From: Pseudorhodoplanes sp.
GTDB taxonomy: Bacteria > Pseudomonadota > Alphaproteobacteria > Rhizobiales > Xanthobacteraceae
Direction: 5' to 3'
NCBI GenBank assembly: GCA_032027085.1
Contig: JAVSMS010000001.1
Coordinates: forward strand, 2,442,501 to 2,506,500
DNA length: 64,000 nucleotides
Part shown: piece after piece, positions 33,987 to 41,346 of the stretch
Layout of the letters: each line of letters opens with the position of its first letter
How positions within the stretch are numbered: the first letter of the stretch is position 1
Made by a program: the position numbers and the translations under genes
Notes under the pieces: generated by a model
What the model saw: only the letters and a program-made list of their open reading frames with translations
Told to the model about the DNA's origin: nothing
Databases searched by the model: none

Positions 33987-35117
33987 TCAGATCACATATT
34001 GCCGCAGCGGCGGAAAGCCGTTGAAGCCGACCGATGAATACATTGTCGTGTAGGCCCCGGTGGCTTCGATCAGCACCTTGTCGCCGATGGCGAGTGACAC
34101 CGGCAGCGGGTAGGGGTTCTTCTCGTAGAGCACATCGACCGAATCGCAGGTGGGTCCCGCCAGCACACAAGGGGCCATCTCGTCGCGGTCACGCTTGGTC
34201 CGGATCGGATAGCGGATCGATTCGTCGATGGTCTCGGCGAGACCGTGGAACTTGCCGATGTCGAGATAGACCCAGCGCACCTCATCCTCTGGCGAGCGCT
34301 TGGCGATCAGCACCACTTCCGCTTCGATCATGCCGGCATTGCCGACGAGGCCGCGGCCCGGCTCGATAATGGTTTCCGGGATGCGGTTGCCGAAATGGCG
34401 CCGCAGCGCGCGGAAGATGGCGCGACCATAGGATTCGAGCTTCGGCGTCTTGCGCAGATATTTCGCCGGGAAGCCGCCGCCGAGATTGACCAGCGACAGG
34501 TTGATGCCACGCTCGGAGCAGGTGCGGAACACCGCCGCGGCCGAGGCGAGCGCAGCGTCCCAGGCCTGCACATTCTGCTGCTGCGAGCCGACATGGAAGG
34601 AAATGCCGTAGGCGACGAGGCCCTGCCGGTGCGCCAGCTCCAGAATGTCGGCGGCGAATTCCGGCTCGCAGCCGAATTTGCGCGACAGCGGCCATTCGGC
34701 ACCGGTGCCGTCGCAACGGATGCGGCAGATCACCTTGCTGCCGGGCGCCGCGCGCGCGACCTTCCCCACCTCCGCCTCGCAATCGATCGCGAAGAGGGTG
34801 ATGCCGAGCTGGAAGGCCGCCGCGATCTCGCTCTCCTTCTTGATCGGGTTGCCGTAGGAGATGCGGTCGGGCGTTGCGCCGGCGGCCAGCACGTCGCGCG
34901 TCTCCTGGATCGAGGCGACGTCAAAGGAGGAGCCGAGCTCGACCAGAAGCCTGAGCACTTCCGGTGCCGGATTGGCCTTCACTGCATAGAACACCTTGGT
35001 GTCGGGCAGGGCGTTGGCGAAGGCGAGATAGTTCTCGCGCACGATGTCGGTGTCGAGGACGAGACATGGTCCGTCCTCACGGCGGTTCTTCAGAAATTCG
35101 CGGATGCGTGCGGTCAT
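33987..35117 (-). CDS. Ornithine decarboxylase, alanine-racemase fold, copy 1
   Basis: PLP enzyme making putrescine from ornithine. 376 residues from ATG 35117 (MTARIREFLKNRREDGPCLV); the frame stays open upstream through the leader RNA but without homology. PLP lysine Lys47 in VFYAVKANPAPEV, the HVGSQQ loop, LVNLGGGFPAKYL, phosphate-binding EPGRGLVGNAG, and the active-site cysteine with substrate Asp in GPTCDSVDVLYE are all intact. Eukaryotic-type ODCs of this length are usual in alphaproteobacteria; lysine activity is possible too. A paralogue of identical length lies at 39780-40910 and homospermidine synthase lies between them. Expression is probably controlled by the 388-nt leader. Confidence 0.9.
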   Translation of the reverse strand: MTARIREFLKNRREDGPCLVLDTDIVRENYLAFANALPDTKVFYAVKANPAPEVLRLLVELGSSFDVASIQETRDVLAAGATPDRISYGNPIKKESEIAAAFQLGITLFAIDCEAEVGKVARAAPGSKVICRIRCDGTGAEWPLSRKFGCEPEFAADILELAHRQGLVAYGISFHVGSQQQNVQAWDAALASAAAVFRTCSERGINLSLVNLGGGFPAKYLRKTPKLESYGRAIFRALRRHFGNRIPETIIEPGRGLVGNAGMIEAEVVLIAKRSPEDEVRWVYLDIGKFHGLAETIDESIRYPIRTKRDRDEMAPCVLAGPTCDSVDVLYEKNPYPLPVSLAIGDKVLIEATGAYTTMYSSVGFNGFPPLRQYVI

Positions 35118-35505
35118 CGACCGGTTCCCCTCAACCAGCATGCGCGGCGAGAGCCGCTGCAAATGGACCTTTGATGATGCGTGCCGGCGGCCGCTGGAAC
35201 GGCGTCCTTCAACATCACCGCGATAACTCTGCCTTGGTCCGGATGGGGAGATCCCGCTCCGCACGGCCGGCAATGACTGACAAGCCTTTTTAGTGCTCCG
35301 GCATTTGCGCCAGCGTTCCAAAAAAGCCCGCTCCGTCGTTGCTTTAAGACGCGTCCCCCGTTGAGAGCGGGGTGGGCCGGTTTCGCCTCCGGCTGCCGGT
35401 CACTCGTGCAAGGAGGAAGCGTTGCTATCTCCTTGGCGGCTGTCCGGCCTCTTGTCCGGATACCTACCGACCGACACACGTCCACAGGCACGTGCGAATT
35501 TGGGC
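35118..35505 (-). ncRNA. Conserved leader RNA of ornithine decarboxylase 1 (speF motif candidate)
   Basis: The minus strand from about 35505 to the start codon is untranslated and about 388 nt long. Its 5' half (35326-35505) is nearly identical to the leader of the second decarboxylase gene, and a further block near 35250-35287 (GCTCCGCAC, GGCAATGA, GACAAGCCT) is also shared. A conserved RNA called speF is known upstream of alphaproteobacterial ornithine decarboxylase genes; position and organism fit. Possible pairing: CCCGCTC (plus 35365-35371) with GAGCGGG (plus 35327-35333), followed on the RNA by six U, a potential attenuator. Confidence 0.75.
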
Positions 35506-35511
35506 AGGCGA

Positions 35512-35540
35512 AAAATAAATCGAATCGACTCGTGCAGCAA
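35512..35540 (-). promoter_or_regulatory. Promoter of ornithine decarboxylase 1 leader
   Basis: On the minus strand TTGCTG (plus 35535-35540), a 17-base spacer, then TATTTT (plus 35512-35517). The predicted start, about 35505, coincides with the point where similarity to the second decarboxylase leader begins. Confidence 0.6.
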
Positions 35541-35562
35541 GTTTTTTTGACTCACCGAACGA

Positions 35563-35596
35563 GAAGGCGAGCGTCGCTCGCGCGGCGCTCGCCTTC
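35563..35596 (-). terminator. Hairpin downstream of the LysR gene
   Basis: GAAGGCGAGCG (35563-35573) and CGCTCGCCTTC (35586-35596) form a perfect 11-bp stem with a 12-base loop, 17 bp beyond the LysR stop. No T run follows on either strand, so termination efficiency is uncertain. Confidence 0.45.
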
Positions 35597-35612
35597 TTCC
35601 GGTCACGATCTC

Positions 35613-36632
35613 TTAACGCATCTTAACGATTGCTTGCTGCCGCGATGCGCGCGATACGCCGGCCCTGGGGTAACGCATTCCCCGCGGCTTGGCTCGCATC
35701 GTCGGCCAATTGTCCCGCAGCACACCGAACAGCCAGGCGATCCCATCATCCATCATCGCTGCTTTCGAGGCGACGGCCTGCAGCGGGTCACCACCGAGAG
35801 GAATCGGCGGCTCGGTCACAGTCAGGTCGAACCGCTTCGCATGAAGCGACACAAAGTGTCTCGGGATTGCCATGATGAGGTCCGTCTCCGCGATCACCGC
35901 AAGTGCCAGCATGAAGTTCGGAACGGTCAAGGCGATGCGCCGGCTGAATCCACGCTCGGCAAGCAGCCCGTCCACGAAACCGTAGCTGTCGCCGCTTTGG
36001 GATACGAGCAGATGCTGCGCGGCGCAGAATGTCTCCAGGCTGGGCGACCTTGCGAAAGGATGACGGGGGCGCGAGGCGATAACGAAGTCCTCGTCATACA
36101 GCGTATGCGAGACGAAGCGCGCCGGAATCCCGGAGAACGGCGCGATGGCGATATCGAGCGCGCGCGCGTCCAGTTCGGTAAAGGCATTCATCCAGACATG
36201 GCCCCGCGTCGGGCTGCCGGCTGACGGTAAGAGCTGGCGCAACCTGATATCGATATTGGGAGCCATCCGGCGCAGCACCGGCAACAGCTGCGGCAGGACG
36301 ACAGCATCCGGAGCGCCGATCGTGAAGGTGCGGCGCGATCTGGCAGGATCGAAGGGCTCCACGGTCGCAACGATCCGACTTACGCGTGTCAGGATATCGG
36401 CGATCGGCGCGGCGAGCTGTGTCGCGCGCTCGGTGGGCACGACGCCCTTTGGCGCGCGCAGAAACAGCGGGTCTTTGAACATCTGGCGGAGTCGCCCGAG
36501 ACCGTGACTAACGGCCGACGGCGTGAGGTTCAGCCGCCGTGCGGCGCGGCCGACATGCGCCTCCTCCATGACTGCCTGGAACAACACCAGCAGGTTGAGG
36601 TCATTCCGCGAGATGTTAATTTCGTTCAGCAT
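35613..36632 (-). CDS. LysR-family transcriptional regulator (NodD-like subgroup)
   Basis: 339 residues; HTH MEEAHVGRAARRLNLTPSAV then SHGLGRLRQMFKDPLFLRAP. The opening NISRNDLNLLVLFQAVMEE and LRAPKGVVPTERA are typical of the NodD/PA2877-like branch. About 30 residues longer than average at the C terminus, rich in Arg. It is divergent from the DUF924 gene across a 105-bp AT-rich gap. Target genes unknown; nothing ties it to polyamine synthesis besides location. Confidence 0.85.
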   Translation of the reverse strand: MLNEINISRNDLNLLVLFQAVMEEAHVGRAARRLNLTPSAVSHGLGRLRQMFKDPLFLRAPKGVVPTERATQLAAPIADILTRVSRIVATVEPFDPARSRRTFTIGAPDAVVLPQLLPVLRRMAPNIDIRLRQLLPSAGSPTRGHVWMNAFTELDARALDIAIAPFSGIPARFVSHTLYDEDFVIASRPRHPFARSPSLETFCAAQHLLVSQSGDSYGFVDGLLAERGFSRRIALTVPNFMLALAVIAETDLIMAIPRHFVSLHAKRFDLTVTEPPIPLGGDPLQAVASKAAMMDDGIAWLFGVLRDNWPTMRAKPRGMRYPRAGVSRASRQQAIVKMR

Positions 36633-36737
36633 TATACTGAAATCATATCATTGGATTCATCATGGTCCAGCGCCCATTTTCGCGCATGCAGCGGTTCGCG
36701 CGGTGCGGCCGCCACAACCATGTTGGAGATTCGAAGA

Positions 36738-37397
36738 ATGTTGCGATTGTTCAACAAAGACGCAGGCACAGATGCTGCGACGCGCGAAAGCTTCGCGGAA
36801 CTCAACTCTTTCGATGCCGGCGGTGGACTGCGGCAGCGGGCGCAACGAACGCCCCTGCTGTCGTTGTCGGAGGCGGCGGCAGTGATCCGGTTCTGGATCG
36901 AGGCCGGACGCGAGGAGTGGTTCGGTCAGCGCCCGGAATTTGACCAGAGGTTCCGCGAGCGGTTCTTGTCCCTGCATGAGCGGGTCGCGCGTGCGGACAC
37001 TGCAAGCCCGGATTCGGCCGACGAGTCGCTTGCGCTGTTGCTGCTGCTCGATCAATTTCCCCGAAACGCATTTCGCGGCACCCCGCGCATGTACGCGACC
37101 GATGCGCTCGCCTGCCGTATCGCGGACGCAGCGCTGCGCGCGGGGCATGATCAGAATTTCGAGACCGATCTCAGGCCATTCTTCTATCTGCCGTTCGCCC
37201 ATTCCGAAATCCTGGCGGATCAGGAACGCTCGGTCGCGCTCGCGGCATCGCTGCCGGAGCCGGTCCCGTCCCATGCCCGGCGGCATCGCGACATCATCCG
37301 CCGCTTCGGCCGCTTCCCGCATCGCAATCCGATCCTCGGTCGGGCGATGCGGTCGGAGGAGCAGCAATTTCTCGATGAAGGCGGCTTCGCCGGGTGA
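36738..37397 (+). CDS. DUF924 family protein
   Basis: About 219 residues, mostly helical. DUF924 landmarks are clear: VIRFWIEAGREEWFGQRPEF, LLLLLDQFPRNAFRGTPRMY, and FYLPFAHSEILADQERSVAL, followed by RRHRDIIRRFGRFPHRNPIL. The family resembles tetratricopeptide-like helical proteins and has no established function. I start at ATG 36738; ATG 36720 is in frame and possible. Divergent from a LysR gene, converging on homospermidine synthase. Confidence 0.83.
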   Translation: MLRLFNKDAGTDAATRESFAELNSFDAGGGLRQRAQRTPLLSLSEAAAVIRFWIEAGREEWFGQRPEFDQRFRERFLSLHERVARADTASPDSADESLALLLLLDQFPRNAFRGTPRMYATDALACRIADAALRAGHDQNFETDLRPFFYLPFAHSEILADQERSVALAASLPEPVPSHARRHRDIIRRFGRFPHRNPILGRAMRSEEQQFLDEGGFAG

Positions 37398-37412
37398 CGT
37401 GCGCGTAGAAAC

Positions 37413-37443
37413 AGCCATGGCCGGGCGCGACCCGGCCATGGCT
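37413..37443. terminator. Perfect palindrome between converging DUF924 and homospermidine synthase genes
   Basis: AGCCATGGCCGGG (37413-37425) and CCCGGCCATGGCT (37431-37443) pair over 13 bases with a five-base loop. Placed between converging genes it could terminate both, although no T run is present. It also resembles the GGCCGGG core of dispersed repeats elsewhere in the window. Confidence 0.45.
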
Positions 37444-37500
37444 CCAATATGGAGAACGCGTTGCCGGGCCACGCCGCTCGCGGCCAGCAATGACGTCGTG

Positions 37501-38931
37501 CTATCGCACCAGCACGTTCCGGAATTGCCACGGGTCGCTCTCGTCGATGTCTTCCGGAAAGAGTCCGGGACGATCGGTGAGCGGCGTCCAGTCGGTGTAA
37601 ACGCCGACCACGGGGCCGAGATAGGGCCGCTGCACCTCGAGGCAGCGGCGGAAATCCATCTCGTCGGCCTCGATGATGCCGGCATTCGGATTTTCCAGCG
37701 CCCAGACCATGCCCGTCATCACCGCCGAGGTCACCTGCAGGCCGGTTGCGTTCTGATACGGCGCCAGTTCCCGCGTCTCGTCGATCGAGAGCTGCGAGCC
37801 GTACCAATAGGCGTTCTTCTTGTGGCCGTAGACCAGCACGCCGAGCTCGTCGATGCCATCCACGATCTCGTTTTCGTCGAGAATGTGGAACGTATCCTGC
37901 CGCTTGCCGGCCTGGCCGAACATCTCGTGCAGCGACAGCACCGCGTCGTTGCAGGGATGATAGGCGTAGTGGCAGGTCGGCCGGTACACGACCTTGCCGC
38001 CCTCACGCAGCGTGAAATAGTCCGCAATCGAAATTGACTCGTTGTGGGTGACCAGGAACGCGCGCTGCGCCTGCGCCGTCGGCGTCCAGGAGCGCACGCG
38101 CGTGTCGGCGCCCGGCTGCAGCAGATAGATCGCCGAGCCGCAGCCGCTCTTGTGATGATGGCCGTTCGCCGGCATCCATTTTTCATGCGTGCCGAAGCCG
38201 AGCTCGGACGGCTGCAGGCCTTCGCCGGTAAAGCCCTCCACCGACCAGGTGTTGACGAAGACATTCTGCGGCTTCGGCTTCTTGGCGCGCTGGGTGTCGC
38301 GCTCGGCGATATGGATGCCTTTCACGCCGAGCTGCTGTGCCAGCCGGCCCCATTCCTCGCGGCTCGCCGGCTCCTTCACCTTCAGGCCGGTGTCGCGGGC
38401 GATGTCGAGCAGCGCCTGCTTCACGAACCAGGACACCATGCCGGGATTGGCGCCGCAGCAGGACACGGCGGTGGTGCCGCCCGGCTTCTTGCGGCGCGCC
38501 TCGAGAATGGTCTCGCGCAGGGCATAGTTGGAGCGCGCTTCCGGCCCCTTCTGCGGATCGAAATAGAAGCCGGCCCAGGGCTCGACCACGGTGTCGATGT
38601 AGAGCGCGCCGATCTCCCGGCACAGCTCCATGATATCGAGCGAGGAGGTATCGACTGAAACGTTGACGCAGAAGCCCTGGCCGCCGCCCTTGGTCAGAAG
38701 GGGCGTGAGCAGCTCGCGGTAATTGTTTTTGGTCACTGCCTCGTGGACGAAGCGGATGCCGCGCTGGTCGAGCAGGCTTCGATCCTTGTCCTCGGGGTCG
38801 ATGACCACGAAGCGCGCCTTGTCGAAGGCAAAATGCCGCTCGATCAGCGGCAGCAAGCCTTTGCCGATCGAACCAAATCCGATCATGACGACGGGGCCAT
38901 CGATCTTGGCGTGCACAGGCCAGGTGGTCAT
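37501..38931 (-). CDS. hss: Homospermidine synthase
   Basis: Makes sym-homospermidine from putrescine (or putrescine plus spermidine) with NAD as prosthetic cofactor. 476 residues from ATG 38931 (MTTWPVHAKIDGPVVMIGFG), one short of the Blastochloris viridis enzyme; the preceding 34 open codons lack homology. Rossmann motif GFGSIGKGLLP near residue 18, VDTSSLDIMELCREIGALYI, YFDPQKGPEARSNY, SCCGANPGMVSWFVKQALL, NGHHHKSGCGSAIYLLQPGA. It is the polyamine step following ornithine decarboxylase, whose two genes flank it. GGGAGC lies upstream of the start. Confidence 0.94.
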   Translation of the reverse strand: MTTWPVHAKIDGPVVMIGFGSIGKGLLPLIERHFAFDKARFVVIDPEDKDRSLLDQRGIRFVHEAVTKNNYRELLTPLLTKGGGQGFCVNVSVDTSSLDIMELCREIGALYIDTVVEPWAGFYFDPQKGPEARSNYALRETILEARRKKPGGTTAVSCCGANPGMVSWFVKQALLDIARDTGLKVKEPASREEWGRLAQQLGVKGIHIAERDTQRAKKPKPQNVFVNTWSVEGFTGEGLQPSELGFGTHEKWMPANGHHHKSGCGSAIYLLQPGADTRVRSWTPTAQAQRAFLVTHNESISIADYFTLREGGKVVYRPTCHYAYHPCNDAVLSLHEMFGQAGKRQDTFHILDENEIVDGIDELGVLVYGHKKNAYWYGSQLSIDETRELAPYQNATGLQVTSAVMTGMVWALENPNAGIIEADEMDFRRCLEVQRPYLGPVVGVYTDWTPLTDRPGLFPEDIDESDPWQFRNVLVR

Positions 38932-39035
38932 CTTTCTTTGCTCCCAGGACTCTTCAGGCGTGTTCGGGATGGGCGAAAGGCGGGGCCATCGCGGAAGACG
39001 CTCCGCGATAGCCCCAAAGTGAAGGGCTGGCAAAC

Positions 39036-39596
39036 TCAGGCTGCGCGCGGTGTGCGCCTGTTGACAGCCTTCCGCTCCGCCGCGATGTCGGGCTTCGCTG
39101 CCGGACGACCGGTCGCGCCGATCAGGCCGCGGGCGCCGGCAAGGGCGCCGGCCGTCAGCTCGAGGCCGAGCAGCCGGTGCTGCTCATACGCACCTGGCAT
39201 CCGCAGCGATCCGGTCTTCTCCGCCGAGAAGCCGAAGCGGCCATAGTAAGGCGCGTCGCCGACAAGCAGGATCGCGTCATGGCCGCGCATGCGCGCCGCA
39301 CTGATCGCGTGTTTCATCAGCCTGGCGCCAAGGCCCTTGCCCTGGTGCGCCGGATCGACCGCCAGCGGGCCGAGCAGCAATGCCCGCTGTCCGGGTCCGG
39401 CCGACACATTCCAGAGGCGAACGGTGCCGACGATCGTGTCGCGCTCGGTCGCGACGAAGGACAGGCCGTCCGCCGGCAGTCGGCCCTCGCGCAGGCGCGC
39501 CGAGGTCTTGGTGAAGCGCGCGGATCCGTAGGCGCGGTCGAGCAATGCTTCGCGCGCGGCAATATCGGAGACGCGTTCCTTGCGGATGGCGATCAT
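39036..39596 (-). CDS. GNAT-family N-acetyltransferase (YhbS-like)
   Basis: 186 residues from ATG 39596 (MIAIRKERVSDIAAREALLD). Acetyl-CoA-binding motif A is visible as LAVDPAHQGKGLGARLMKHA, followed by DAILLVGDAPYYGRFGFSAE, characteristic of YhbS-type enzymes. The C-terminal 40 residues are Ala/Arg-rich and probably disordered. It lies between hss and the second ornithine decarboxylase gene on the same strand; an acetyl acceptor among polyamines is possible but not indicated by sequence. Confidence 0.85.
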   Translation of the reverse strand: MIAIRKERVSDIAAREALLDRAYGSARFTKTSARLREGRLPADGLSFVATERDTIVGTVRLWNVSAGPGQRALLLGPLAVDPAHQGKGLGARLMKHAISAARMRGHDAILLVGDAPYYGRFGFSAEKTGSLRMPGAYEQHRLLGLELTAGALAGARGLIGATGRPAAKPDIAAERKAVNRRTPRAA

Positions 39597-39639
39597 CGGT
39601 CCACTCCGTCCTGGACCGTCACCTGAGGCGCGCACGCAG

Positions 39640-39725
39640 CGCGCCTCGAAGGGTGACAGCCAGGTCCTTGACGTTTTGGCCGTCGCCCTTCGAGGGCCTC
39701 GCCGCGCGAGGCCCGCAGGATGACG
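39640..39725. repeat. Dispersed palindromic element CCTCGAAGG / CCTTCGAGG
   Basis: GCGCCTCGAAGGGTGA near 39640 is mirrored by CGCCCTTCGAGGGC near 39686, with an added GCCTCGC/GCGAGGC hairpin at 39698. Similar sequence occurs near 31.53-31.60 kb. Non-coding, between the acetyltransferase start and the decarboxylase terminator. Confidence 0.55.
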
Positions 39726-39748
39726 GATGAATGCCGTTAAGAGAAAAG

Positions 39749-39772
39749 GGGAGCCGGCTTCGGCCGGCTCCC
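39749..39772 (-). terminator. Rho-independent terminator of ornithine decarboxylase 2
   Basis: On the minus strand GGGAGCCGGC pairs with GCCGGCTCCC around a CGAA tetraloop, then CTTTTCTC. Starts 8 bp after the decarboxylase stop. Confidence 0.85.
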
Positions 39773-39779
39773 GGCGATG

Positions 39780-40910
39780 TCAGATGTGATACGTCTTCAG
39801 CGGCGGGAAGCCGTTGAAGGCGACCGATGAGTAGGTGGCCGTATAGGCGCCGGTGCCCTCGATCAGCAGCTTGTCGCCGATCTCCAGGCTCACCGGCAGC
39901 AGATACGGCTGCTTCTCGTAGAGCACGTCCGCCGAGTCGCAGGTCGGGCCGGCGAGGATGCACGGCGACATCTCCGCATCGTCGCGTGGCGTCCTGATCG
40001 GATAGCGGATCGACTCGTCCATCGTCTCGGCGAGGCCGCCGAACTTGCCGATGTCGAGATAGACCCAACGCACCTCGTCCTCCTCGCTCTTCTTGGAGAC
40101 GAGGACGACTTCGGTCTCGATCACGCCGGCATTGCCGACCATGCCGCGGCCCGGCTCGATGATGGTCTCCGGGATGCGGTTGCCGAAATGCTTGCGCAGC
40201 GCGCGGAAGATCGCCGAGCCGTAGGTCTTCACCGTCGGCACGTTCTTCAGGTACCTGGTCGGGAAGCCGCCGCCAAGATTGACCATCGACAGGTTGATGC
40301 CGCGCTCGCCGCACTCCTTGAACACGGCGGCCGCCTGCGCCAGCGCACGGTCCCAGGCATGCTGGTTGCGCTGCTGCGAACCGACATGGAAGGAAATGCC
40401 GTAGGCGGCAAGGCCCAGCCGGTGCGCGTGCTCCAGCACGTCCGCGGCCATGGCCGGCTCGCAGCCGAACTTGCGCGACAGCGGCCATTCCGCGCCGGCG
40501 CCGTCGCACAGGATGCGGCAGAACACCTTCGCCTCAGGCGCCGCGCGGGCGACCTTCTCGACCTCGGCCTTGCAGTCGACCGCGAACAGGCGCACGCCGA
40601 GCGCAAAGGCGCGCGCGATATCGCGCTCCTTCTTGATGGTGTTGCCATAGGAGATGCGGTCGGCCGTCGCGCCGGCCGCGAGCACCATCTCGATCTCGGC
40701 GACCGAGGCGGTGTCGAAGCACGAGCCCATCGAGGCCAGCAAGGACAGCACTTCCGGCGCCGGGTTCGCCTTCACGGCGTAGAACACGCGGCTGTCCGGC
40801 AGCGCCTTGGCGAAGGCGTTGTAATTGTCGCGCACGACGTCGAGGTCGACGACAAGGCACGGCCCGTCATCCCGGCGCTGGCGCAGGAACTCGCGAATGC
40901 GGTCGGTCAT
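39780..40910 (-). CDS. Ornithine decarboxylase, alanine-racemase fold, copy 2
   Basis: Paralogue of the decarboxylase at 33987-35117, also 376 residues, and alignable without gaps over nearly the whole chain. PLP Lys47 in VFYAVKANPAPEV, HVGSQQRNQHAWD, LVNM-type NLGGGFPTRYL, EPGRGMVGNAG and GPTCDSADVLYEKQP are intact, so both copies should be active. Start ATG 40910 (MTDRIREFLRQRRDDGPCLV). It has its own terminator and its own copy of the conserved leader RNA and promoter. Substrate is probably ornithine; divergence of one copy toward lysine or another basic amino acid is possible. Confidence 0.9.
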   Translation of the reverse strand: MTDRIREFLRQRRDDGPCLVVDLDVVRDNYNAFAKALPDSRVFYAVKANPAPEVLSLLASMGSCFDTASVAEIEMVLAAGATADRISYGNTIKKERDIARAFALGVRLFAVDCKAEVEKVARAAPEAKVFCRILCDGAGAEWPLSRKFGCEPAMAADVLEHAHRLGLAAYGISFHVGSQQRNQHAWDRALAQAAAVFKECGERGINLSMVNLGGGFPTRYLKNVPTVKTYGSAIFRALRKHFGNRIPETIIEPGRGMVGNAGVIETEVVLVSKKSEEDEVRWVYLDIGKFGGLAETMDESIRYPIRTPRDDAEMSPCILAGPTCDSADVLYEKQPYLLPVSLEIGDKLLIEGTGAYTATYSSVAFNGFPPLKTYHI

Positions 40911-41311
40911 CTCGCTCTCCAAAACGGCACAAGGGGACGGCTGCGCCGTCCGCGATGAGCGCCGGTCCGCGATGGACGCCGCCGCGCGATGGAAGCGCGA
41001 CAAGCGCCGGGCTCGCGACCCGACTGGCTGCCTTGGATTGGAAAGGGAGGATCCCGTTCCGCACACCTGGCAATGAAGGACAAGCCTCTTCGGCTACAGG
41101 TCCGGCTTTTGGACAGCCGGGAGTTACCTAGAAGCCCGCTCCGTCGTTGCTTTAAGACGCGTCCCCCGTTGAGAGCGGGGATCGCCGGTTTCGCCTCCGG
41201 CTGCCGGTCGCTGATGCAAGGAAGGCAGGTCCCTTCCTTAGGCGGCTATCCGGCCTCTTGTCCGGACGCCCACCGACCGACACACGTCCACAGGCACGTG
41301 CGAATTTGGGC
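40911..41311 (-). ncRNA. Conserved leader RNA of ornithine decarboxylase 2 (speF motif candidate)
   Basis: About 401 nt of untranslated minus-strand RNA from about 41311 to the start codon. Positions 41134-41311 match the first leader almost base for base, including TCCACAGGCACGTGCGAATT, the GGCCTCTTGTCCGGA block and GCTTTAAGACGCG, while bases closer to the gene have drifted. It keeps the pairing partners CCCGCTC and GAGCGGG (plus 41173-41179 and 41135-41141), but the U run that follows in copy 1 is replaced by CUUCUAGG, so a terminator would not work here. Confidence 0.75.
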
Positions 41312-41317
41312 GAGGTG

Positions 41318-41346
41318 CAGATAAGAAAAGTGCACTTCGAATGCAA
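41318..41346 (-). promoter_or_regulatory. Promoter of ornithine decarboxylase 2 leader
   Basis: On the minus strand TTGCAT (plus 41341-41346), a 17-base spacer and TATCTG (plus 41318-41323). Predicted start near 41311, exactly where similarity to the other leader begins, as for copy 1. Confidence 0.55.

Follow-up and report, generated by a model that had tools for sequence, protein, structure and literature searches.

We analyzed a 64,000-nt stretch of the genome of a Pseudorhodoplanes sp. (hereafter the window; positions 2,442,501 to 2,506,500 of contig JAVSMS010000001.1), in which two paralogous ornithine decarboxylase (ODC) genes are each preceded by a long 5′ leader. The genome is a single contig of 4.97 Mb. 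The genes belong to COG0019 and share 79% DNA identity, and each leader consists of two parts that correspond to separate Rfam families, ar45 and speF. The features in question are as follows.

33987..35117, minus strand: ODC_A, a pyridoxal phosphate-dependent ornithine/lysine decarboxylase-like protein, 376 aa (Pfam PF02784/PF00278; 76% identical to ODC_B)
39780..40910, minus strand: ODC_B, the paralogue of ODC_A, 376 aa (Pfam; best solved chain 5gjm, lysine/ornithine decarboxylase, E 6.9e-63)
35505->35118, minus strand: leader A, 388 nt, of ODC_A (sequence comparison)
41311->40911, minus strand: leader B, 401 nt, of ODC_B (sequence comparison)
35322..35505, minus strand: ar45 half (RF02347) of leader A, 62.0 bits, gathering score 40
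41130..41311, minus strand: ar45 half (RF02347) of leader B, 61.5 bits, gathering score 40
35159..35315, minus strand: speF half (RF00518) of leader A, degenerate, 35.2 bits, gathering score 37, E 2.6e-7
40964..41122, minus strand: speF half (RF00518) of leader B, 70.8 bits, gathering score 37
35512..35540, minus strand: predicted promoter A, TTGCTG-17 bp-TATTTT (from sequence, spacing counted by eye)
41318..41346, minus strand: predicted promoter B, TTGCAT-17 bp-TATCTG (from sequence, spacing counted by eye)

A preliminary description of this DNA had reported that the first 178–180 bp of the two leaders are nearly identical. The duplicated block is real, although that wording is slightly strong: over about 180 nt (35505-35322 vs. 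41311-41130), 166 of 186 aligned columns are identical (89%), against 61% for the remaining leader parts and 60% for the 60 bp upstream. The onset of similarity at the predicted transcription start is as sharp as had been described, and the 17-bp spacing of the −35 and −10 boxes holds for both promoters; by eye, each −10 box is followed by 6 nt and then GCCC. The description had also placed speF leaders before both ODC genes. Both leaders are indeed of speF type; the near-identical part, however, is ar45, which lies outside the Rfam speF model and exceeds its own gathering score in both copies. The covariance search that the description had proposed found speF clearly in copy B, while copy A stayed just under the gathering score (35.2 vs. 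37 bits; E 2.6e-7 for 461 bp searched), and its speF half is a degenerate speF relative. The family matches lie far beyond chance, and the leaders belong to known families or, for the speF half of copy A, closely resemble them.

Compared with the RpoH consensus, promoter B (41318-41346) reads as CTTG-N-CTTAT-like, and heat-shock sigma control is a possible candidate; CTTG and TA-type boxes are visible by eye in relatives at the place of promoter A. For SmelC706, the Sinorhizobium meliloti counterpart of ar45, a review table gives a predicted RpoH1/2 motif (PMC7143759).

We think it probable that each leader is a composite cis-regulatory RNA of its ODC gene, with ar45 and speF halves joined by a long-range contact, transcripts ending at a U-tract, expression set by polyamines, and these control points split between the twin copies. 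The joining of the two halves is supported by their contiguity, their near-fixed spacing, their placement before ODC genes, and a short co-varying helix.

Surveyed across the order (397 genomes), the two families look like one RNA. Both families are present in 166 genomes; in the 122 compared for spacing, among the matches listed for both families, the gap is 8 nt in 103, 9 nt in 10, 7 nt in 8 and 6 nt in one (in the window it is 6 nt in A and 7 nt in B), and none of the 122 has ar45 elsewhere than 6–9 nt before speF. An ODC gene lies downstream of all 154 leaders checked, its product 64–100% identical to ODC_B, and the median leader length is 428 nt (n = 153). With a match to either family at E ≤ 0.001 counted as a leader, 206 of the 211 genomes with ODC have one, and the 186 genomes without ODC yield two weak speF matches. 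Matches to a single family are ar45 without speF in 3 genomes and speF without ar45 in 39. For 13 of these 39 the upstream DNA was examined, and the two ar45 strands are visible by eye in every case, mostly flanking a long insert, so the ar45 model misses such loci. In family f23 (L105–L108), ar45 has shrunk to 57 nt, with a short loop in place of the large insert, which shows the ar45 core.

This survey bears on the possibility that ar45 is primarily an independent, trans-acting, Hfq-bound small RNA (sRNA) that shares the ODC promoter and stands before speF only incidentally. Rfam files ar45 as ‘Gene; sRNA’, published accounts treat it as an sRNA of no known function (PMC7717549, PMC12403871), and its co-immunoprecipitation with Hfq in S. 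meliloti is cited alongside a report of independent expression in Bartonella (PMC7717549). We nevertheless consider this explanation quite improbable. Free sRNA genes are expected to move, and the fixed position of ar45, like the ODC gene downstream of every leader checked, argues against such a gene; of the 169 genomes with an ar45 match, only that of the window, which has two ODC genes, carries more than one copy; and a pairing with speF would have no role in a free ar45. Within the genus of the window, two ar45 copies are found in five of eight genomes.

That pairing is part of the composite reading. The ar45 strand just before P1, a 4-bp helix that closes the long structured stem, co-varies with the loop of the GGC/GCC hairpin of speF in the combinations GUA/UAC, GGU/ACC, GGA/UCC and GAA/UUY. 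Its two sides in the window are these.

35331..35334, minus strand: ar45 side of the contact in A, GGAG
41139..41142, minus strand: ar45 side of the contact in B, GGAG
35278..35281, minus strand: speF loop side in A, GUCA; two pairs left, contact lost
41078..41081, minus strand: speF loop side in B, GUCC; GGA:UCC intact

Of the four column pairs that rank highest after average product correction (APC) in a 106-sequence composite alignment, two belong to the contact (57-114, 56-115); the other two lie in P4. When 105 leaders were aligned on sequence only with MAFFT, 89.5% of the cells of the contact helix were paired, with two-sided changes at three of its four pairs, and a 13-pair structure exceeded all 500 shuffles in score, paired share and two-sided cells. 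In the 3-bp core of the contact, 94.4% of cells are paired, 59 are two-sided and covariation is 0.573, compared with 0.019–0.207 in slid registers. An alignment-free count over 202 distinct leaders gave three Watson-Crick contact pairs in 168 (shuffled mean 82, maximum 102), four in 94 (mean 33, maximum 49), and at least 3 bp in any register, with G-U allowed, in 199 (mean 169, maximum 182). Along a quick ODC tree with strong support on only 24 of 102 inner branches, pair 56:94 changes type at least 13 times and pair 57:93 at least 3 times. Comparison thus supports a contact between ar45 and speF, of which we found no description in the portions of the literature searched. A different pairing, of UUGG after the U-tract with a UCCA loop, was dropped by eye; UUCG and UUGU variants leave UCCA unchanged.

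A class-level search of 367 genomes, using a model from the same leader alignment with the contact left out, matched 19 genomes, 14 of them outside the order. Thirteen of these 14 have an ODC gene downstream, and in 12 the contact is present by eye, including L269 (GUAA with UUAC) and L272, where the 5′ ar45 strand was not found. Outside the 12 are L270 and L271; the latter, which shows neither an ODC match nor a contact, is taken as chance. The P1 pairing is kept by eye despite changed letters in L151, L152, L269 and L270. In the distant leader L270 (G469), P1 is GACGC/GCGUC in place of GCCC/GGGC, directly before CUUUUU, and the contact is ambiguous.

The differences between the twin leaders of the window include the contact listed above and the U-tract.

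35320..35325, minus strand: U-tract after P1 in A, UUUUUU
41128..41133, minus strand: broken U-tract after P1 in B, UUCUAG

Leader A has kept U6 and lost the contact (GUCA), whereas leader B has kept the contact (GUCC) and has UUCUAG as its U-tract. Ten genomes with both copies were compared. A copy was assigned to A or B according to whether the hairpin that follows the U-tract lacks UCCA (A) or contains it (B), so that the UCCA difference itself is no result. All 10 A copies have an intact U6, but only 2 of the 10 B copies do (Fisher p = 7e-4, ignoring shared ancestry); one further genome (L183 and L248, apparently the same metagenome-assembled genome, MAG) seems to fit and stands outside the 10 counted. 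The window pair is the extreme case. With G-U pairs allowed, the 3-bp contact is missing from just three of the 202 leaders: copy A of the window, copy A of the close relative G403 (L174), and L136, in which a bulge would restore pairing. Most A copies therefore keep it. This, and the occurrence of U-tracts broken by C at loci where one leader was seen (L205, L209, L236, L240), would suit neutral decay, in which the twins lost parts at random with no division of labor; the skewed distribution of U6 runs counter to it, and we lean slightly against this explanation while taking it seriously. On the composite reading, the duplicated leaders diverged in opposite halves, so the U-tract is expected to be the chief control point of ODC_A and the speF contact that of ODC_B. 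The preliminary description had valued the two natural copies as a good system, and they do offer a useful contrast, although not as equivalent copies. Across the ar45 halves (35505-35326, 41311-41134), copy A of the window is closer to copy B of G403 (0.939) than to its copy A (0.907), which is only suggestive of exchange between twin leaders across Pseudorhodoplanes species.

The stem closed by P1 has predicted minimum free energies of −80.3 and −88.8 kcal/mol in the two window leaders. TTTTTT abuts P1 in at least 126 of the 202 leaders, plus 8 misread by the search pattern; other U-tracts are CTTTCT (18), TTTTTC (15), TTCCTT (8) and various forms in the rest. RNA polymerase would start at GCCC, after which ar45 would fold; many transcripts would end at the U-tract directly after P1, giving the ~150-nt ‘ar45 sRNA’, and those that read through would form the ar45-speF contact; as a platform, this contact may act on their translation or on a later stop. 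The composite fold would then set ODC expression by polyamine state. The most likely mechanism is a cis-acting attenuator of ODC, with ar45 as its presumed short product. Transcript ends at GCCC and the U-tract are consistent with the 148-nt SmelC706/smrC45 RNA seen in deep sequencing of S. meliloti, which has the length of the ar45 model (PMC2873474), and with the separate ar45 of Bartonella, reported beside a speF read-through band of >700 nt (PMC7717549). In Methylosinus sporium, ar45 was called as an intergenic transcription unit (PMC12403871). An alternative terminator stem, CCCGCUC:GAGCGGG in the window, was dropped as a general model, the 57-nt ar45 of L105–L108 being without the upstream strand.

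As the signal, homospermidine is the best candidate. Among the 211 genomes of the order with ODC, 199 have both a leader and a homospermidine synthase, 7 a leader only, none a synthase only and 5 neither (Fisher p = 2.4e-7, ancestry not corrected), so that the leader is present in 199 of 199 genomes with both enzymes; synthase matches were accepted to E 0.001, and G162 and G249 are counted as positive on weaker matches. The corresponding counts for all 397 genomes (199/9/18/171) mostly reflect presence of the pathway, and the table within ODC-positive genomes is fairer. The five ODC-positive genomes without either match are G003, G043, G047, G083 and G388. The preliminary description had proposed ornithine or a polyamine as the ligand. 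Ornithine, putrescine and spermidine have become less likely, because they reportedly do not bind the Agrobacterium leader (PMC1273637), for which a probing model of −400 to +3 is described; homospermidine, which the description had also listed, is not among the compounds named in the available text of that paper, and the portions of the literature searched gave us no description of its binding by the leader. In S. meliloti, Odc2 makes nearly all putrescine (PMC13293326). A bolder version of the composite reading would make ar45 the aptamer and speF the expression platform of an unrecognised riboswitch class sensing homospermidine or another rhizobial polyamine through U-tract termination and a kissing contact that spans the tract, with duplication having split the control points between the two ODC genes in Pseudorhodoplanes and relatives; we regard this version as unlikely.

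Several observations weigh against the composite reading. In the APC list, column pairs that cannot pair also rank high (e.g., 8-25, 30-57), soon after the top, which indicates that shared ancestry is still in the ranking. For the 13-pair structure, the two measures that depend least on relatedness did not rise above the shuffles: pairs with two-sided changes numbered 5 vs. 5.4, and further pair types 18 vs. 16.6. Hardly any cells were filled at four hairpin pairs of this structure. The contact is short, and with G-U pairs and any register allowed, 78% of mismatched motif and loop combinations can pair. Strongly supported branches of the ODC tree give only three independent contrasts per test, so the phylogenetic sign tests cannot reach significance; on average 2.7, 2.8 and 2.0 agree and none opposes, and control column 99 also followed (2.4 of 3) while control column 96 did not. 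Because polymerase reaches the speF loop only once it is beyond the U-tract, the contact cannot itself decide the event there and must act on transcripts that have read through. Seven ODC-positive genomes have a leader and no homospermidine synthase match, among them G164 and G373 (family f24, 1.5–1.6 Mb) and G044, with a weak speF match only; homospermidine therefore cannot be all that keeps the leader. The four pairs of P1 would make a weak intrinsic terminator, and many leaders have interrupted U-tracts (CTTTCT in 18 and TTCCTT in 8 of 202), so that processing could be the source of the short RNA. Smr45C is said not to have been found in Mesorhizobium huakuii, for which a speF-region RNA of 325 nt is listed (PMC5596092), and six pathway metabolites were reported not to bind the leader in an Agrobacterium tumefaciens construct (Corbino et al. 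2005, PMC1273637).

The last four of these points would suit a leader that folds into a platform on which a protein binds or RNase processing takes place, and not into a metabolite sensor, with ar45 as a stable processed 5′ fragment. That TTTTTT abuts P1 in so many leaders speaks for termination instead, and the conserved internal loops of ar45 look aptamer-like, so that we find this explanation doubtful.

If ar45 and speF are one RNA, tests on either half alone can mislead, and a single family that includes the contact should replace the two. The proposed contact offers a concrete handle on the control of polyamine synthesis in these bacteria and is amenable to compensatory mutation; twins with opposite halves broken provide a natural separation of the two putative control points; the 57-nt ar45 of family f23 is a convenient minimal RNA. 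The agreement between leader and homospermidine synthase among ODC-positive genomes points to a compound absent from the list in the available 2005 text.

The gene for this enzyme lies between the two ODC genes in the window.

37501..38934, minus strand: homospermidine synthase, 477 aa, between ODC_A and ODC_B (phmmer to 4plp, E 1.2e-265)

Together with a GNAT acetyltransferase gene it forms a compact polyamine cluster (37501-39596, minus strand) flanked by the two ODC genes. A LysR-type gene adjoins the ODC_A copy, and the closest named relatives of ODC_A are from Pseudorhodoplanes MAGs.

Among known systems, SpeFL of gammaproteobacteria is an ornithine-sensing leader peptide that controls ornithine decarboxylase via its leader. 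This control through a leader is what it would share with the ODC leaders; here, however, the candidate frame that opens at the GTG of the conserved 5′ strand occurs in 67 lengths across 202 leaders, and an ATG falls within the first 24 nt in 4 of 202. On this lack of conservation the GTG frame, the one tested, was set aside as a candidate sensor. In cobalamin riboswitches, a kissing-loop contact links the sensing part to a downstream hairpin. The ODC leaders may work similarly by loop contact, an analogy only.

The speF leader (RF00518), for which the 2005 description gave no ligand (Corbino et al. 2005, PMC1273637), has the same placement before COG0019 ODC genes as the window leaders, and the literature seen agrees with the preliminary description that its ligand is not established. 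The main text of that paper uses ‘pseudoknot’ three times, in the passages available about SAM-II, and its speF section mentions no terminator. Its ‘extended speF element’ starts near the transcription start and comprises a stem that carries a large insertion and, after it, ~80 conserved nt, with which the joined ar45-speF element agrees. Current Rfam models cover the halves separately, and ar45/smrC45/SmelC706 (RF02347), filed there as an sRNA gene, is here the 5′ half of an ODC leader, in two copies; smrC45 and speF are given as one locus in S. meliloti (PMC2573895, PMC7143759). What is new, as far as sequence comparison reaches, is the joined ar45-speF structure and the opposite divergence of the twins.

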